NCBI GenBank assembly: GCA_947503175.1
Contig: CANNCO010000001.1
Location: forward strand, 496,001 to 560,000
Reading direction: 5' to 3'
From: an uncultured Paracoccaceae bacterium
GTDB taxonomy: Bacteria > Pseudomonadota > Alphaproteobacteria > Rhodobacterales > Rhodobacteraceae
Length of the DNA stretch: 64,000 nt
Shown: positions 5,920 to 58,297 of the stretch, piece by piece
How the letters are laid out: each line of letters opens with the position of its first letter
Numbering within the stretch: position 1 is the stretch's first letter
Program-made: the position numbers and the translations under genes
Notes under the pieces: model-generated
What the model was told of the DNA's origin: nothing
Database searches by the model: none
The model's input: the letters and a program-made list of their open reading frames with translations, nothing else

Positions 5920-7527
5920 CTAAACCATCATCTCTTTCGTCGCTGACAGCGTCAGGTCGGGATAGTCCCGTTCGACCCGGTCGATATCCCATTGCAGGCG
6001 GGTCAGATAGACCGTGTCGCCGTCATTGTCATGGGCGATATGGCCCTTGTTGCTGTCGACGAAAGCCTCGACCTTGGCCTTCGGACCAGTGACCCAACGG
6101 GCGGAGGTGAACTGCGACGGCTCGAACCGGACGGGCAGGCCGTATTCAAGTTCGATCCGGCTGGCCAGAACCTCGAACTGAAGCTGCCCCACAACGCCGA
6201 CGATGAAGCCCGCGCCGATCATCGGCTTGAATATCTTGGCGGCGCCTTCCTCGGCGAATTGCATCAGCGCCTTGTCCAGATGCTTGGCCTTCAGCGGGTC
6301 GCCCGCGCGGACGTTTTGCAGGAGTTCCGGGGCGAAAGACGGGATGCCGGTCACCCGGATCGCCTCGCCCTCGGTCAGGGTGTCGCCGATGCGAAGCTGG
6401 CCGTGGTTCGGGATGCCGATGATGTCGCCCGCCCAGGCCTCTTCCGCCAGTTCGCGGTCGGAGGCGAGGAACAGGACGGGGTTCGAGACGGCCATGGGTT
6501 TTTTCGTGCGCACATGGGTGAGTTTCATGCCACGGGTGAAATGGCCCGAGGCAAGCCGCAGGAAGGCAACGCGGTCGCGGTGTTTCGGGTCCATGTTGGC
6601 CTGAACCTTGAAGACGAAGCCCGCGACCTTGGTTTCTTCGGGTGCCACCTGCCGGGGCTCGGCGGATTGCGGCTGGGGCTCCGGGCCGTAAGTGCCGATC
6701 CCGTCCATCAGTTCCTTCACACCGAAGGAGTTGATCGCCGAACCGAACCAGATCGGGGTCAGCGTGCCATCCAGAAACGCCTGTTGGTCGAAACGCGGCA
6801 GAAGCTCGCGCGCCATCTCGATATCTTCGCGCAGCTTGTCCAAGAGTTCGGCTGGCACGTGTTCGGCCAGTTTCGGGTCATCGAGCCCGTCGATCCGGAT
6901 CGAGTCCGCCACAGTGTTGCGGTCGGCGCGGTCCATCAGCTCCAGCCGGTCGTGCAGCATGTCGTAGCAACCAAGGAAATCGCGCCCGACGCCGATGGGC
7001 CACGAGGCCGGGGTGACGTCGATGGCGAGGTTCTCCTGAATTTCGTCGATGATCTCGAACGTGTCGCGGCTTTCCCGGTCCATTTTGTTGCAGAAGGTCA
7101 GGATCGGCAGATCGCGCAGGCGGCAGACCTCGAACAGTTTCTGTGTCTGGCTTTCCACGCCTTTCGCGCCGTCGATCACCATGATCGCGGCATCCACCGC
7201 GGTGAGCGTGCGATAGGTGTCTTCGGAGAAATCCGAATGGCCGGGCGTGTCCACCAGATTGAACCGGAAGTCCTTGAAATCGAAGGACATGGCCGAGGCT
7301 GAGACGGAAATGCCCCGATCCTTTTCCATCTGCATGAAGTCCGAGCGCGTGCGCCGTGCCTCGCCCTTGGCGCGCACCTGGCCCGCCATCTGGATCGCGC
7401 CGCCGTAGAGCAGGAATTTCTCGGTCAGCGTCGTCTTGCCCGCATCCGGGTGCGAAATGATGGCAAAGGTCCGCCGCCGCGCAATCTCGGGCGGCAGGGA
7501 CGAGGTATTATGGGCGCGGTCCAGCAT
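5920..7527 (-). CDS. prfC: Peptide chain release factor 3
   Basis: GTPase that recycles RF1/RF2 from the ribosome after termination. 535 residues from the ATG at 7527 (another in-frame ATG is at 7536). G motifs: ISHPDAGKTT, DTPGHSDFSEDTYR and CNKMDR; the C-terminal RF3 region includes VGVVGQLQFEVLASRIE. Longer upstream frames lack family sequence. No clear ribosome-binding site is visible before either ATG. Length matches the family. Confidence 0.93.
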   Translation of the reverse strand: MLDRAHNTSSLPPEIARRRTFAIISHPDAGKTTLTEKFLLYGGAIQMAGQVRAKGEARRTRSDFMQMEKDRGISVSASAMSFDFKDFRFNLVDTPGHSDFSEDTYRTLTAVDAAIMVIDGAKGVESQTQKLFEVCRLRDLPILTFCNKMDRESRDTFEIIDEIQENLAIDVTPASWPIGVGRDFLGCYDMLHDRLELMDRADRNTVADSIRIDGLDDPKLAEHVPAELLDKLREDIEMARELLPRFDQQAFLDGTLTPIWFGSAINSFGVKELMDGIGTYGPEPQPQSAEPRQVAPEETKVAGFVFKVQANMDPKHRDRVAFLRLASGHFTRGMKLTHVRTKKPMAVSNPVLFLASDRELAEEAWAGDIIGIPNHGQLRIGDTLTEGEAIRVTGIPSFAPELLQNVRAGDPLKAKHLDKALMQFAEEGAAKIFKPMIGAGFIVGVVGQLQFEVLASRIELEYGLPVRFEPSQFTSARWVTGPKAKVEAFVDSNKGHIAHDNDGDTVYLTRLQWDIDRVERDYPDLTLSATKEMMV

Positions 7528-7643
7528 GGGGCGCATATAGCGGCGGGTTGGCGGGAAGGGAAGAAGGGTAGACCGTTTGGTGCTGCGGGAAATCGGGCGC
7601 ATAGTCCGGCTGGTGGCACAAGGATCCAGAGGAGGACAGCCCA

Positions 7644-8021
7644 ATGCCGGATACAACGGACATCGCCCAAGCGCTTGTCGGCCATTGCCGGGCGCATACC
7701 GAGGCTGAAGGCTTGACAACGCTTTATGCGAAAGACGCCGAATCAATCGAGGCCAACCACATGCCAGACGGGTCGCGTGTGGCCAAGGGCGTCGAGGCGA
7801 TCGCGGCCAAGCACGACTGGTGGAACCAGAACTTCGAGGTTCATTCGGCCGAGGTCGACGGGCCCTATATCCATGACAACCGGTTCGCGGTGATCTTTAC
7901 GATTGATGTGACCGAGAAGGCCACCGGCACGCGCTGGAAGATGAGCGAGGTGGGGCTTTATACGGTGACCGAGGACAAGATCACCCGCGAGGAGTTCTTT
8001 CAGGCGCCCATGCCTGGCTAG
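7644..8021 (+). CDS. SnoaL-like / nuclear transport factor 2-fold protein
   Basis: 125 residues with the NTF2/SnoaL pattern: N-terminal helix, LYAKDAESIEANHMPDG, EAIAAKHDWWNQNFEVHSAEVDGPYIHDNRFAVIFTID in pieces, and a C-terminal FFQAPMPG. Such cone-shaped folds serve as isomerases, hydrolases or binding proteins; the substrate cannot be read from sequence. A GGAGGAC ribosome-binding site is well placed before the ATG. It stands alone between divergent prfC and a repeat element. Confidence 0.7.
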   Translation: MPDTTDIAQALVGHCRAHTEAEGLTTLYAKDAESIEANHMPDGSRVAKGVEAIAAKHDWWNQNFEVHSAEVDGPYIHDNRFAVIFTIDVTEKATGTRWKMSEVGLYTVTEDKITREEFFQAPMPG

Positions 8022-51352: not shown

Positions 51353-52387
51353 TCAATCGAGCACCAGTCTGTCCGCGCCGAGCGGCATCAGCATGTGGGC
51401 GACCTCGGCCTCGGTCACGTCTTCGAGCGTGCCGTGGCGCCAGTTCGGGCGGCGGTCCTTGTCGATGATCGCCGCGCGGATGCCTTCTAGAAAGTCGCTT
51501 TCCTCCATGGCGCGGTAGGTGAAGCGGTACTCCAGTTCCAGCGCGCGGCGGATCGAGGTCGCGCCGCGCACGCGCGCGATGGCTTCGTGGGTACAGGCAA
51601 CCGCCAGCGGGCTGCCAGTGGACAGCGCCTTGCGTGTCTTGGCGGAAATGTCGGATCGGTCTGTATCGAGCGATCGCATCACCTCGGCCATCGAAGGACG
51701 GTCATAGTGCCGGTGTATCCAGTCGCCGATCGCGGCCAGCGGAGCTTCAGGCGCGGGGCGCGCCGCATCAGCGATGCAGGCGGGATCGCCGGAGGTTTCC
51801 AGCCGTTCGATGAGAGCGGGCCATTTTTCTTCGGGCATGAACGTATCGGCGAACCCGGCGAGGATCGCGTCGCCCGGACCCATGCGGTAGCCCGTTGTTC
51901 CGATGTAATGGCCGATGCAGCCCTTGGTCCGCGACAGGATCAGCGAGCCCCCCACGTCGGGGATTATCCCGATGGCGCATTCGGGCATGGCGACCTGTGT
52001 CGTCGCTCCGACGACGCGATGCGAGCCATGGCAGGAAACGCCGACGCCGCCGCCCATCGTGTAGCCCTGCATGAAGGCGACATAGGGTTTGGGAAACTCG
52101 GCAACCTTGGCGTTCAAGCGGTATTCTTCGGTCCAGAAGCGGCGGCCGAAGTCGAAATCTCCGGCGCAGCCCTTGTGATACATCTCGGCGATGTCGCCGC
52201 CGGAACAGAAGGCGCGGTCGCCTGCGGCGTCAATGACGACGAGTTCCACCGCATCGTCATCGCGCCATGCGTCGAGCGCGGCTTCGATGGCGTTGCACAT
52301 CTCCCATGTCAGCGCATTCAGTGATTGCGGACGGCTGAGCGTGATCCGGCCTGCACGGCCGGTTGTGCGGATCAGAACGTCGGTCAT
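51353..52387 (-). CDS. 3-Hydroxyisobutyryl-CoA hydrolase (enoyl-CoA hydratase family)
   Basis: 344 residues, the longer crotonase type of HIBCH. FCSGGDIAEMYHKG, GYTMGGGVGVSCHGSHRVVG, PECAIGIIPDVGGSL with the catalytic Glu/Asp, and an extended C-terminal part. Releases 3-hydroxyisobutyrate from CoA. Starts four bases inside the acyl-CoA dehydrogenase gene. Confidence 0.9.
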   Translation of the reverse strand: MTDVLIRTTGRAGRITLSRPQSLNALTWEMCNAIEAALDAWRDDDAVELVVIDAAGDRAFCSGGDIAEMYHKGCAGDFDFGRRFWTEEYRLNAKVAEFPKPYVAFMQGYTMGGGVGVSCHGSHRVVGATTQVAMPECAIGIIPDVGGSLILSRTKGCIGHYIGTTGYRMGPGDAILAGFADTFMPEEKWPALIERLETSGDPACIADAARPAPEAPLAAIGDWIHRHYDRPSMAEVMRSLDTDRSDISAKTRKALSTGSPLAVACTHEAIARVRGATSIRRALELEYRFTYRAMEESDFLEGIRAAIIDKDRRPNWRHGTLEDVTEAEVAHMLMPLGADRLVLD

Positions 52388-53523
52388 TTCGCGATGAGGC
52401 CCCGCGCCACGATGAGCCGCATGATCTCGTTCGTGCCTTCAAGGATCTGGTGGACGCGCAGGTCGCGGACGATCTTTTCGATCCCGTAATCCGCCAGATA
52501 GCCGTAGCCGCCGTGAAGTTGCAGGCACTGGTCGGCCACGCGGCTGCCGGTTTCGGTCACATGCTTTTTGGCCATGGCGCAGCGTTTGGAGGCGTCGGGC
52601 TGCCCGGTGTCGAATGCCCATGCGGCCTGGCGAAGGAAGGTCCGGGCGGCCTGCAGCTCGATCTCCATGTCTGCGAGGCGGAACTGGAGCGCCTGAAACT
52701 GGTCGATCGGCTTTCCGAATGCCTTGCGCTCGGCCATGTAGGCAATCGTGGCGTCGAGGGCGGACTGGGCGGCACCGAGGGAACAGGCGGCGATGTTCAG
52801 ACGGCCCCCATCGAGGCCCGACATCGCATAAGTGAAACCTTCGCCTTCTTCACCCAGAAGGTTGCCGACCGGAATGTTGCAATTGTCCAACTGGACCTGG
52901 CGGGTCGGCTGGCTGCGCCAGCCCATCTTGTCCTCGAGGCCGCCGAAACTGAGGCCCTCCGCGCCGTCTTCGACAATGAGCGTCGAGATGCCTTTGGGGC
53001 CGTCTTCGCCCGTCCGGCACATGACGATATAGGCGTCGGAATAGCCGCCGCCGGAGATGAACGCCTTGGTGCCGGTCAGCGCATAGCCTTCGTTGGTACG
53101 CGTTGCGCGAGTCTTGAGGGCTGCCGCATCCGAGCCCGATCCCGGTTCGGTCAGGCAATAGGAGAGGACGGTTTCCATCTTAAGCGCCGGTGGCAGGAAA
53201 CGTGCCTTCAGGTCGTCCGAGCCGTAGCGGTCGATCATCGCCGCGCACATGTTATGGATCGACAGGAAGGCCGAGACAGAGGCGCAGGACATGGACAGCG
53301 CCTCGAACACCAGCGTTGCGTCCAGCCGGGTCAGGCCGGCGCCGCCGCTCTCTTCGGAGACGTAGAGGCCCCCGAAGCCCAGTTCGGCGAGGGGAGCCCA
53401 CAGATCCCTTGGGATCGTGCCCTGCGCGTCCCAGTCGCGGGCATGGGGGGCGATGTGTTCCGCGCCGAATTCGCGGGCCATTTCGAAGATGGCAGATTGT
53501 TCTTCGCTAAGTGCGAAATCCAT
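52384..53523 (-). CDS. Isobutyryl-CoA dehydrogenase-like acyl-CoA dehydrogenase
   Basis: 379 residues. N-terminal FALSEEQSAIFEMAREF, FAD motif YCLTEPGSGSDAAAL, catalytic Glu in HQILEGTNEIMRLI. Oxidises branched acyl-CoA and passes electrons to ETF. Context (HIBCH, mmsB, mmsA) points to isobutyryl-CoA, but a different short acyl chain is possible. Confidence 0.9.
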   Translation of the reverse strand: MDFALSEEQSAIFEMAREFGAEHIAPHARDWDAQGTIPRDLWAPLAELGFGGLYVSEESGGAGLTRLDATLVFEALSMSCASVSAFLSIHNMCAAMIDRYGSDDLKARFLPPALKMETVLSYCLTEPGSGSDAAALKTRATRTNEGYALTGTKAFISGGGYSDAYIVMCRTGEDGPKGISTLIVEDGAEGLSFGGLEDKMGWRSQPTRQVQLDNCNIPVGNLLGEEGEGFTYAMSGLDGGRLNIAACSLGAAQSALDATIAYMAERKAFGKPIDQFQALQFRLADMEIELQAARTFLRQAAWAFDTGQPDASKRCAMAKKHVTETGSRVADQCLQLHGGYGYLADYGIEKIVRDLRVHQILEGTNEIMRLIVARGLIAK

Positions 53524-53584: not shown

Positions 53585-54715
53585 TCAGAGCCCTTCGTGA
53601 AACTCTTCGATCAGGTGCGAGACAACTGCGCAAAGGGCCGTTTCGTGATCCTGACCGGCTTTGACCGCAGTCTCATAGACGGTGCGCTGACGATCGGCGC
53701 TGGTTCCCGTTTCGACCATCTCGAGTACGCGCTGGGTTTCTTCGACGGAGCGGAGCACGCCGGCGTCTTCTCCTACGAGGTCCATCCACTGACCGGCAAT
53801 GGCTTCGAAGCTGATGATCTCGCGGGCGCCGAAATCGATCATCCCTTCGGATGTGCCGTAGCGCTGCGCGCGCCAGCGGTTTTCGCCCACAAGGAAGGTG
53901 TCGTAGATCCGCCAGCGCTGGTTCTTGCGGGAGAGCCGGTAGAGTGACCGGAGCGTCGATTGGGTCAGTGCGGCAAGGGTCAGTGTGTCTTCGATGCGTG
54001 GCGAGACATCGCAGATCCGCGATTCAAGCGTCGGGAAGCGGGAGGAGGGGCGCAGGTCCCACCAGATTTTCGACGTGTCTTCGATAATTCCGAGATCGAT
54101 GAGCACTCCGACGGAGCGTTCGTACTCTGGCCAGCTGGTGACGCGGGGCGGCAGGCCCGTGCGCGGCAGGTTGTCGAATATCGTCATCCGGTAGGACGAA
54201 AGCCCGGTATCGCTGCCCTGCCAATAGGGCGACGAGGCACTGAGGGCCAGGAGGTGCGGCAGGAAGTAGGTGAACTGGTTCATCAGATCGACCCGCAGGT
54301 CGCGGTCTTCGATCCCCACATGGACATGCATTCCGCAGATCAGCATCCGGCGCGCGACGCCGCCCAGATCCTTCTCCAGCTGATTGTAGCGTTCCTTGTC
54401 GGTGTGGTGCTGTTTCTTCCAGTCCGCGAAGGGGTGACAGGACACCGCGATGGGGGCGAGTCCATGGGTCTTTGCGTGTTTGGCGACGGTCGAGCGAAGG
54501 CGTTTGAGGTCTTCGCGTGCCTCGCCGATCGTCTTGCAGACACGGGTGCCGATCTCGATCTGGCATTGCAGGAATTCGGGACTGACCTGTTCACCGAGAT
54601 CGTCGATACAGGCCTGCATGAGTTCCTGTGGAGCTTCGGCCAACGCGCAGGTTTCGGAGTCGACCAGAAGGTATTCTTCCTCGATGCCGATGGTGAATTC
54701 GGGTTCCTGAACCAT
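53585..54715 (-). CDS. Glutamate-cysteine ligase type 2 (YbdK-like carboxylate-amine ligase)
   Basis: 376 residues from the ATG at 54715 (GGAAAGG upstream). GCS2 motifs: [46 protein letters not shown]. Makes gamma-glutamyl bonds; in proteobacteria this class may be a low-activity ligase, not the main GshA. It is the only gene on the minus strand between acyl-CoA dehydrogenase and mmsA. Confidence 0.88.
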
Positions 54716-55112
54716 GCGCCACAACCTTTCCTTGTCCGGCGAGTTGAGCGGAAAGAACTTGGCGTGGCAAGCGTCGGATTTAGTGCGACTTTGCCGATTC
54801 GGCGTGTTTGGAAATCTTCGCGATGTGGTGGGATGGCGTCTTTTTGGCGGTTGTGGAGATCGGAACGGGCTCCGGTGCCGGGAATTCCTGATTCTCAACA
54901 GTTATGCCCAAATGTTACGCTCTGTTTCTATTTCTGTCGCTTATTTCTACCTTTGCACGAGCGTTGTTGTCTGAATCGCCTTAAGATTGCAAAGGAAGGT
55001 TCGTTGCGAGCGATATTAACCTTTGCAGCAGAATTGTGGCGTGCTTAGTATGTCGGTGATGGGGGTGAGGTGTCCCCGTTCTTGTGTACCTATTAGATGG
55101 GGGATTTTGAAA
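54716..55112. other. 397-base divergent spacer, AT-rich
   Basis: Divergent spacer between the GCS2 and first VPLPA-CTERM genes. It is more AT-rich than its surroundings, especially from about 54890 to 55110. No gene seen; it should hold the promoters of both neighbours. No clear operator found. Confidence 0.5.
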
Positions 55113-55793
55113 ATGCGGAAACTATTATTGACGGCGGGGGCGGTTCTGGCCACGTCCGTCGTAGCAGCATCTGCCGCGACCGTTACTTTTGAGACGGATG
55201 AAGCCGGTTTTGTTGCGGTGGCGTCTTCGAGCGGCACGCAGACAGGTGGGGCTGCGTTGGGTCCGTTTGCAGGTGGTGGCACGACGTTTACCATCGACGC
55301 GGATACATTCACGACTTCGGGCAGCAGCCTGACCCTGAATGGCGAGACCAACATTGAGATCACTCAGAACAATGAGGGTCTTGGTATCGACAATAACAAT
55401 GGGTTTTTCGGTGGTGATAACTCCGACATCGATGGCGCCAACGACAACGACATCCTTGTCTTCACCTTCGCGAAGTCGATCAGCCTGTTCGACATCATTT
55501 TCGAGAATGTGACGAACAACGATGACTTTATCTTCTATGTGCCGGGTGCAAACCCGGAGTTCGCACAGTACGATATCATCAATCCTATCCCGTTCGATAC
55601 TGATGGCGACGAAGGCATCTTCAGCTTTGGTGGCCTTGTCGTCGATACTTTCGGCATCGGCGCGAGAGGCGGCAATGATGACTTCAGACTGTCCAAGCTG
55701 GACTATGCGGTTGTTCCGCTTCCTGCAGCTGGCTGGCTGATGCTTGCGGGTATCGGCGGGCTTGCAGCACTACGCCGCAAGAAGAAAGCCTGA
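55113..55793 (+). CDS. VPLPA-CTERM sorting-domain protein 1
   Basis: 226 residues from the ATG at 55113. Signal peptide (LLLTAGAVLATSVVAASA), an acidic Asn/Asp/Gly-rich beta body (NNEGLGIDNNNGFFGGDNSDID), and a C-terminal tag VPLPAAGWLMLAGIGGLA plus RRKKKA. Such tags are cut by an exosortase and attach or release the protein at the surface. No exosortase lies in the window. Body function unknown; it may bind Ca2+ or be a matrix protein. Confidence 0.88.
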   Translation: MRKLLLTAGAVLATSVVAASAATVTFETDEAGFVAVASSSGTQTGGAALGPFAGGGTTFTIDADTFTTSGSSLTLNGETNIEITQNNEGLGIDNNNGFFGGDNSDIDGANDNDILVFTFAKSISLFDIIFENVTNNDDFIFYVPGANPEFAQYDIINPIPFDTDGDEGIFSFGGLVVDTFGIGARGGNDDFRLSKLDYAVVPLPAAGWLMLAGIGGLAALRRKKKA

Positions 55794-55850
55794 TCTGCAT
55801 CGTTTGATCATTTAACAAATGGAAAAGGGCGGCCCCACGGCCGCCCTTTT
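55713..55850 (+). repeat. Duplicated 3' module, copy A
   Basis: Covers the tag-coding end, stop, spacer and terminator of VPLPA protein 1. It closely matches 56639-56777, including the non-coding GATCTGCATCGTTTGATCAT after the stop, though the upstream halves of the two genes are unrelated. Confidence 0.8.
55823..55850 (+). terminator. Terminator of VPLPA gene 1
   Basis: Stem GGGCGGCC-CCAC-GGCCGCCC flanked by AAAA and TTTT, 30 bases past the stop. The following 248 bases to 56098 hold no gene. Confidence 0.9.
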
Positions 55851-56098
55851 CCTTTGGATCGGCCTGTCGGATCCGGCGATCCGCGTTTCGACGGGGCGGG
55901 TTGCGAAGAGAACTCATGTGTCTTTCGGGCGATGAACCGCCGTGGGCGCGGTGACGATCTGACCCCTGGGGTAAGCCAGACAGACGTAACGTTTCGTTGC
56001 GTCCGTTGCGAGAAAGCTTGAGGGCCTCAGCCGGGTCTGATAGGCGATTACGGCGAGTAAGCGGTCTTGGACTGCGTGTGTGACATTATGGGGGAAAT

Positions 56099-56719
56099 AT
56101 GAAGAGAGTTATTCTGGTAGCGGCTGCGGCTGTTGCATCTATTGGTATTGCGACGGCATCGGCCATTGCCGCACCCGTTAAACCGATCCAGACATTCACG
56201 GAAACCGGAGCGTGCAGCGTTTCCGATTTCACGACCACAACGGCAGACGACTGTTTTGGCCTCGTCCTGAATTCGAACGATGACACGACGCCGGATACGA
56301 ACGAGAACAAGCAGGCGACATTCAATCTTGAGACTTTCGGCTCTGAGACGGGTTTGTTCGGTAATACCGGTTACGGCTTTATTGCGAAGTCCGATAATGG
56401 CGGTCTGAGCGATGGCCTTAGCTATTCGGTCAGCGGAACAATCGCCAGCTTCAACTATGCCGGGGATCTGTCCGGCTTTGAGTATGTCGTCTATGTCTTC
56501 AAGCAGTCGAACGACTTCGCGGCCTATCTGTTTGACAAGACCGCAGCACCGACGAGCGGAGCGTTCGACCTGAGCGTTTTTCCCAACTCGGACTCTCTGA
56601 GCCATATCTCGATCTATGCAGGTGGTCAGACGACCGTGGTTCCGCTTCCCGCGGCTGGCTGGCTGATGCTTGCGGGTATCGGTGGACTTGCAGCACTGCG
56701 CCGCAAGAAGAAAGCCTGA
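56099..56719 (+). CDS. VPLPA-CTERM sorting-domain protein 2
   Basis: 206 residues. Signal peptide (VILVAAAAVASIGIATASAIAA) and a body with two Cys near the start (GACSVSDF, DDCFGLVLN), then Gly/Ser/Asn-rich beta sequence and the same C-terminal tag VPLPAAGWLMLAGIGGLA. The body shares no visible similarity with protein 1. Probably exported and processed by the same exosortase. Confidence 0.88.
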   Translation: MKRVILVAAAAVASIGIATASAIAAPVKPIQTFTETGACSVSDFTTTTADDCFGLVLNSNDDTTPDTNENKQATFNLETFGSETGLFGNTGYGFIAKSDNGGLSDGLSYSVSGTIASFNYAGDLSGFEYVVYVFKQSNDFAAYLFDKTAAPTSGAFDLSVFPNSDSLSHISIYAGGQTTVVPLPAAGWLMLAGIGGLAALRRKKKA

Positions 56720-56777
56720 TCTGCATCGTTTGATCATTCAGAAAACAAGAAAGGGCGGCCCAGCGGCCGCCCTTTTT
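56639..56777 (+). repeat. Duplicated 3' module, copy B
   Basis: Partner of 55713-55850: tag codons, stop, shared 3' spacer and terminator. Confidence 0.8.
56753..56777 (+). terminator. Terminator of VPLPA gene 2
   Basis: Stem GGGCGGCC-CAGC-GGCCGCCC followed by TTTTT. It lies 20 bases from the stop of convergent mmsA. Confidence 0.9.
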
Positions 56778-56797
56778 GTTTGAACGCTATGGACGCC

Positions 56798-58297
56798 CTA
56801 CTCCATGACCGGAATGCTGAACTCGCCGCCTTCCTTGATGCCCGAGGGCCAGCGCGCGGTGACCGTCTTGGTGCGCGTGTAGAACTTGAACGCGTCGGGG
56901 CCGTGCTGGTTCAGATCACCGAAGCCCGACTTCTTCCAGCCACCGAAGGTATGATAGGCCAGCGGAACGGGGATCGGGACGTTGATGCCGACCATGCCGA
57001 TATTGATGCGGTTGGCGAAATCGCGGGCGGCGTCGCCGTCGCGGGTAAAGATCGCGGTGCCGTTGCCGTATTCGTGGTCCATGGCATAGCCCAGCGCCTC
57101 TTCGTAGCTTTGGGCGCGGACGGTGCTGAGGACGGGGCCGAAGATCTCTTCCTTATAGATGTCCATGTCGCGGGTGACGCGGTCGAAGAGGTGGGGGCCG
57201 ACAAAGAATCCGTCTTCATAGCCCTGAAGGTTGAAGCCGCGGCCATCGACCACGAGATCGGCACCCTGTTCAACGCCGGAGTTCACCAGACCCAGGACGC
57301 GCTCTTTCGCAGCCGCCGTGACGAGCGGGCCGTAGTCGACATCCTTGCCGGAGGTATAGGGGCCGACCTTGAGCGCCTCGATCCGAGGTACCAGTTTCTC
57401 GATCAGCTTGTCTGCGGTGGCGTCGCCCACCGGGACGGCAACGGAGATGGCCATGCAGCGTTCGCCCGCTGCGCCGTATCCAGCGCCCACGAGCGCGTCG
57501 GCGGCCTGATCCATATCGGCGTCGGGCATGACGATCATGTGGTTCTTGGCACCGCCGAAGCACTGAACGCGCTTGCCGTTCGCGCAGCCGCGGCTGTAGA
57601 TATATTCCGCGATGGGCGTGGAGCCCACGAACCCGATGCCCTGGATGGTCGGATTGTCCAGAATGGCATCGACCGCTTCCTTGTCGCCATTCACCACTTG
57701 AAGGATGCCATCGGGCAGACCGGCCTCTTTCATCAGCTCTGCCAGCATGATCGGGACGGAGGGGTCGCGTTCCGACGGCTTGAGGATGAAGGCGTTGCCG
57801 CAGGCGATGGCGGGTGCGAATTTCCACATCGGGATCATGGCGGGGAAGTTGAAGGGCGTGATGCCCGCGACGACGCCAAGGGCCTGACGCATGGAATACA
57901 TGTCGATGCCCGGTCCGGCGCTGTCGGTGTATTCGCCTTTCAGAAGGTGCGGGGCACCGATGCAGAACTCGACCACCTCCAGCCCGCGCTGCACGTCGCC
58001 GGCGGCATCGGGAAGCGTCTTGCCATGCTCGCGGGACAGTGCTTCGGCAAGTTTGTCCATATCGCGATTGAGAAGGCGGACGAACTCCATGAGCACGCGG
58101 GCGCGGCGCTGCGGGTTGGTGGCGGCCCATGCCGGTTGTGCGGCGGCGGCGCTTGCCACGGCGGCATCAAGTTCGGCTTTTGATGCGAGTGGAACCTTGG
58201 CCTGAACTTCGCCCGTTGCGGGATTGAAGATATCGGCAAAGCGGCCGGATGTGCCTTTGGCGTGTTGGCCGTCGATGAAATGCGCAAGCTCTTGCAT
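56798..58297 (-). CDS. mmsA: Methylmalonate-semialdehyde dehydrogenase (CoA-acylating)
   Basis: 499 residues. Converts methylmalonate semialdehyde to propionyl-CoA, CO2 and NADH, the last step of valine catabolism here. N-terminal HFIDGQHAKGTSGRFADIF, catalytic Cys C281 in GAAGERCMAIS, and ITPFNFPAMIPMWKFAPAIA. GGGAGGG ribosome-binding site. Separated from the rest of the pathway by about 3.3 kb. Confidence 0.95.
   Translation of the reverse strand: MQELAHFIDGQHAKGTSGRFADIFNPATGEVQAKVPLASKAELDAAVASAAAAQPAWAATNPQRRARVLMEFVRLLNRDMDKLAEALSREHGKTLPDAAGDVQRGLEVVEFCIGAPHLLKGEYTDSAGPGIDMYSMRQALGVVAGITPFNFPAMIPMWKFAPAIACGNAFILKPSERDPSVPIMLAELMKEAGLPDGILQVVNGDKEAVDAILDNPTIQGIGFVGSTPIAEYIYSRGCANGKRVQCFGGAKNHMIVMPDADMDQAADALVGAGYGAAGERCMAISVAVPVGDATADKLIEKLVPRIEALKVGPYTSGKDVDYGPLVTAAAKERVLGLVNSGVEQGADLVVDGRGFNLQGYEDGFFVGPHLFDRVTRDMDIYKEEIFGPVLSTVRAQSYEEALGYAMDHEYGNGTAIFTRDGDAARDFANRINIGMVGINVPIPVPLAYHTFGGWKKSGFGDLNQHGPDAFKFYTRTKTVTARWPSGIKEGGEFSIPVME

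Follow-up and report, generated by a model that had tools for sequence, protein, structure and literature searches.

A copied 3' end, reaching from the sorting tag into non-coding DNA, is shared by two neighbouring VPLPA-CTERM genes with unlike bodies

The tags by which exosortases and similar sorting systems recognise their substrates are very short, C-terminal and carried on unrelated protein bodies, and the matching of these tags to one enzyme within a genome has usually been ascribed to protein selection or to lineage expansion. A different process, short-tract gene conversion, homogenises local, directly repeated segments between linked paralogues. In the PEP-CTERM/EpsH (exosortase) system, the tails are more alike within species than between species, and the portions of the original description that we draw on propose that the tail expanded as a modular domain in particular lineages and describe the tagged proteins as rapidly evolving (Haft et al. 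2006, PMC1569441). The argument in those portions is made from protein sequence, and we found in them no case in which the DNA of stop, UTR and terminator had been copied from one named gene to its neighbour; the case described here adds evidence at the DNA level, including non-coding DNA. It concerns the VPLPA-CTERM/exosortase D (XrtD) branch, a subtype separate from PEP-CTERM/EpsH.

The window that we analysed is a stretch of 64,000 nucleotides from an uncultured Paracoccaceae bacterium (assembly GCA_947503175.1, contig CANNCO010000001.1, positions 496,001 to 560,000). Within it, genes A and B are arranged head to tail on the + strand, flanked by a ybdK-like gene on one side and by mmsA on the other (Table 1). 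Their tags score 42.4 bits (A) and 43.5 bits (B) with TIGR03370, over the curated cut-off of 25.35, and both N-termini, as judged by eye in the translations, are hydrophobic and close in A-x-A. The genome holds one gene over the cut-off for XrtD (TIGR04152, 682 bits against a cut-off of 400; G000:C2:174099-175562), so the search for an exosortase of this type that the original prediction had proposed was successful, and A and B are predicted to be surface proteins sorted by XrtD. Four VPLPA-CTERM genes in the genome exceed the cut-off. The two apart from A and B (C1:430295 and C1:942880) have other tag DNA and other 3' ends, and a search of the genome for further copies of the shared 3' module after VPLPA genes, proposed together with that for the exosortase, returned just the two linked copies in A and B. 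A and B are ordinary VPLPA-CTERM members; what is unusual about them is only the identity of their 3' ends at the DNA level.

Table 1. Genes and sequence elements of the locus, in window coordinates.
Feature	Position	Strand	Basis or remark
Acyl-CoA dehydrogenase gene (acad), conserved neighbour	52384..53523	-	synteny
ybdK-like carboxylate-amine ligase gene, conserved neighbour	53585..54898	-	synteny; true start probably near 54715
Gene A: putative signal peptide, XDP1-like body (predicted beta-sandwich), VPLPA-CTERM tag	55113..55793	+	226 aa
3' module copy 1 (tag, stop, UTR, terminator)	55710..55856	+	direct repeat
Core of the copied tract in A	55710..55812	+	97/103 identical to B
Hairpin UGAUC-N10-GAUCA over the stop codon of A; same sequence in B	55791..55810	+	RNA fold
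Intrinsic-terminator-like hairpin after A	55821..55852	+	RNA fold on +; terminator scan lists the stem on -
Gene B: putative signal peptide, body unrelated to that of A (by sequence), VPLPA-CTERM tag	56099..56719	+	206 aa
3' module copy 2	56636..56782	+	direct repeat, 88% to copy 1
Core of the copied tract in B	56636..56738	+	97/103 identical to A
The same UGAUC-N10-GAUCA hairpin at the stop codon of B	56717..56736	+	RNA fold
Intrinsic-terminator-like hairpin after B	56750..56775	+	RNA fold and terminator scan
mmsA-like methylmalonate-semialdehyde dehydrogenase gene, conserved neighbour of A/B-family genes	56798..58297	-	synteny; name from sequence and context

Near-identity of the two 3' ends from tag to terminator had been predicted, together with a non-coding part within the copied segment, and both were borne out. 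A repeat search over positions 54600-57300 returned one strong direct repeat, the two module copies of 147 nt, which starts one codon ahead of VPLPA and ends just past the terminator; a duplicated flank beyond the terminator left no trace in the same search. The core of the tract is made up of the tag, the stop codon and 19 nt of UTR. Its 6 differences are all synonymous, and the tags of A and B are identical in 27/27 residues (VVPLPAAGWLMLAGIGGLAALRRKKKA). Past the tags, TGA and 19 nt are identical, followed by a 12-nt linker with 7 differences and by a terminator region with 4/31 differences; in terms of RNA folding, a hairpin of 5 bp at the stop codon is followed by the diverged linker and then by the terminator hairpin. 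The absence of differences from the UTR block (0/19) is significant against the adjoining linker (7/12, Fisher 3e-4) and against the synonymous codons of the tag (6/25, p=0.025). This pattern, 0/19 and then 7/12, is unlike that of one uniformly ageing tract, which counts against the local copying proposed below, and two possible reasons can be considered for the identical UTR block: a second, shorter copying event, or selection since the copying.

How far this likeness exceeds chance differs between the parts of the tract. In the tags, 21/27 codons are identical, where 12.6 would be expected from the codon usage of the window (P about 6e-4). Distant VPLPA pairs, however, already share 49% of their codons at positions with the same amino acid, and against this baseline the A/B pair, with 15/20 codons identical, is mildly high (P=0.017), so that the tag alone is only suggestive and its codon identity was rejected as stand-alone proof of copying. 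Because the excess in the tag is merely mild, the decisive evidence for copying is the UTR. The exact run after the stop codon is 19 nt in A and B, compared with 8 nt for the longest found elsewhere in 4851 pairs (99 VPLPA genes of related genomes). When gaps were allowed, the UTR score of A/B was 38, compared with at most 26 among 12,880 pairs (161 genes, 60 genomes), the maxima being 22 for the other within-genome pairs and 26 between genomes. Among 398 within-genome VPLPA pairs from 60 related genomes, no other pair has post-stop sequence in common. The claim that the terminator was copied as well stands in part: the two terminators are at the same offset, and their exact 8-bp stem is present at only these two sites in the genome, but terminators of the GGGCGG...CCGCCC type follow 27/161 VPLPA genes, which makes this weaker evidence, and a generic terminator was set aside as proof of copying.

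The bodies are as unlike as had been supposed. After removal of the tags, BLASTP gave an E value of 1.9, i.e. no match, and a Smith-Waterman shuffle test gave P=0.013, located inside a composition-biased stretch; hhalign assigned to the A-family and B-family profiles a 0.04% probability of relatedness. Judged by these sequence comparisons, the two bodies belong to two unrelated families. The profile NF041927 (XDP1, an exosortase-dependent surface protein) is matched by 9/11 A-family members. Gene A matches it over residues 10-138 with 40.8 bits, under the whole-protein cut-off of 125, and on this ground it is a distant relative and not XDP1 itself. Its predicted structure (pLDDT 73) has an all-beta body with a C-terminal helix, and the model weakly resembles discoidin/CBM32-like structures (best E 9e-4, TM about 0.3), from which glycan binding might be guessed. 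The family of gene B is unnamed; its alignment shows the motifs DC..GLFG..K..YLLD..LSHxSxY, with a conserved cysteine, GLFG, YLLD and LSHxSxY, and the predicted structure of B (pLDDT 44) is too poor for a fold comparison with A.

We also compared the surroundings of the pair with those of its relatives. Body-only profiles searched against 394 genomes of the bacterial family detected members of the A-family in 40 genomes and of the B-family in 22. With the window locus excluded, 16/29 of the A-family loci that were fetched, and about 10/21 of the B-family loci, have mmsA, acad, ybdK, cbs or coaD close by. Three genomes (G337, G117 and G231) share with the window the order ybdK, A-like gene, mmsA, and two others (G269 and G136) carry a tandem of A-like and B-like genes at the mmsA/ybdK locus, with the B-like gene upstream, whereas in the window A precedes B. 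A recent insertion of the pair into a metabolic cluster, as the original prediction had it, is rejected by this synteny in other genera. Because genes of both families adjoin the same metabolic genes there, the A/B pair is old, and the mmsA/ybdK site is an established home for such genes. The A-family and B-family relatives in other genera have their own tags and their own 3' ends.

Several further arrangements were seen at this site. Two VPLPA-CTERM families recur beside the valine-degradation genes mmsA/acad/ybdK in many genera (L235, L236, L238, L211, L213, L218, L221 and L222), and in one relative (G012) ybdK and mmsA are almost abutting. The nearest genome (G001, same genus) has no A-like gene at the locus; its B-family gene lies at another place and has another tail. 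At its corresponding locus (L200) mmsA is missing, and between ybdK and cbs lies a VPLPA gene (7323-7790, + strand) whose body is of a third kind, short and rich in glycine and proline. This gene was considered as a tail orthologue and rejected: the identity of its tag DNA to A ranks 16th/94 and its 3' UTR is unlike. The idea of a conserved tail with a swapped body, for which the same gene would have been the witness, was dropped on the same two counts.

We consider it probable that one of these old mmsA/ybdK residents recently had its 3' end copied onto its neighbour in the lineage of this species. Since relatives of both bodies carry different tails, the tail must have passed between A and B, or both must have received it from one source. 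Both families have long resided beside mmsA and ybdK in this bacterial family, and in the ancestry of the species the tag codons, the stop codon, the UTR and probably the terminator of one gene would have been copied to the neighbour about 0.9 kb away, the exchange being seeded by tag codons that were already alike before the event. The route may have been short-tract gene conversion, or a duplication of the tail or unequal exchange; the simplest would be gene conversion acting locally, or duplication of the tail. As expected for local gene conversion, the neighbours share a tract of DNA that includes non-coding sequence, and the flanks of the tract are non-homologous. The case is like short-tract conversion between paralogues in that the homogenised segment is local, directly repeated and placed between linked genes, but it differs in that A and B encode non-homologous proteins and that the prior homology would be limited to the short tag. 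The PAAGW form of the tag, as seen in A and B, is commoner in the B-family (4/6 other tags) than in the aligned A-family set (1/10 others), which weakly suggests that B was the donor and that the copying went from B to A.

Other ways of arriving at such a pair have to be weighed against local copying. The original prediction offered gene conversion, which stays as an option, and also the movement of the 3' module in one piece. A mobile or reusable cassette of tag, UTR and terminator, fused to new bodies across the genome, would explain the clean ends of the unit (at the tag start and past the terminator) and the unlikeness of the two bodies, but the mobile unit is unsupported and very improbable when the genome has two linked copies only, its two other VPLPA genes are without the module and no like case occurs among the 398 within-genome pairs. 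No viral contig contains the UTR 20-mer, and the one match to it among 257 billion bases of GTDB contigs, from which the window's own species was possibly excluded, is in Burkholderia, which is at chance level given that about 0.5 matches are expected by our estimate. An identical end product would be reached if a tandem duplication of one gene had been followed by replacement of the 5' part in one copy with the other body, or if a foreign body had been inserted before a duplicated tail, and the order of A and B, reversed relative to G269 and G136, indicates that the locus was rearranged. Such a birth from the tail is nevertheless unlikely: A-family genes with their own tails are already at the locus in other genera, so that no new fusion is needed, and no duplicated flank could be traced past the terminator.

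A plain tandem duplication of a whole gene, with bodies that diverged beyond recognition, would account for two adjacent genes on the same strand with the same tag, and structure prediction leaves it some room, the body of A being predicted as all-beta and the model of B being too poor for comparison. It is ruled out for practical purposes by the separate body families, each of which has members in other genera with different 3' ends and whose profiles do not match in hhalign; moreover, a 20-nt UTR block would hardly be kept identical while about 180 codons lost all likeness. It might also be supposed that selection and not copying keeps the 3' ends alike, the UTR hairpin and the tag being functional RNA and protein elements. 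The folding of the 20-nt block as a hairpin over the stop codon fits this idea, as does the excess of differences in the linker and in the synonymous codons over the UTR block. However, none of the other VPLPA genes, in this genome or in 59 more, was seen to have the UTR element, which makes convergence implausible, and as the source of the likeness selection is quite improbable. It may instead have preserved the UTR element after the copying.

Beyond this locus, neighbouring VPLPA genes seem to resemble each other in their tags more often than distant ones. In the 161 genes of 60 genomes, tag DNA identity of at least 80% was reached by 4/16 near and 8/382 far within-genome pairs (Fisher p=7e-4), and tag amino-acid identity of at least 90% by 4/16 near and 4/382 far pairs (p=1e-4), both thresholds having been picked after inspection of the data, with the A/B pair itself among the 4 near pairs and the near pairs partly drawn from genomes that have no far pairs; a Mann-Whitney comparison of near and far identities gave p=0.03 only. 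Near-identical tags on neighbours with unlike bodies were found in three more genera (G332, G081 and G280), the tags there being of their own kind. The adjacent VPLPA-type genes of G332 (L272, about 1400-2400, - strand) have unrelated bodies and tags that are 89% identical in DNA, up to the stop codon. Those of G081 (L088, about 1000-1900, + strand), also with unrelated bodies, have tags 86% identical in DNA, and the best of the genome's 27 distant pairs reaches 77%. Of the three, G332 alone has a clearly raised codon identity. Because the likeness in all three ends at the stop codon, shared descent or protein selection may also explain it, and the UTR is shared in the A/B pair only. By the counts of near and far pairs, homogenisation of tags between adjacent, unlike VPLPA genes looks recurrent. 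A wider proposal, that local recombination at a conserved locus for surface proteins repeatedly overwrites tails between unlike neighbours, that the tag is kept concerted by position while the bodies evolve independently, and that here selection has maintained the hairpin at the stop codon after the copying, we put forward tentatively and regard as rather doubtful.

The link of two families of predicted surface proteins to a valine-degradation locus (mmsA) is in itself a notable association. If local copying is the true origin of the shared 3' end, the transfer of tag and UTR DNA from one gene to an unlike neighbour would directly provide a mechanism for the matching of tags to their enzyme, and the case of A and B may illustrate how a functional sorting tag is maintained on proteins with different bodies.
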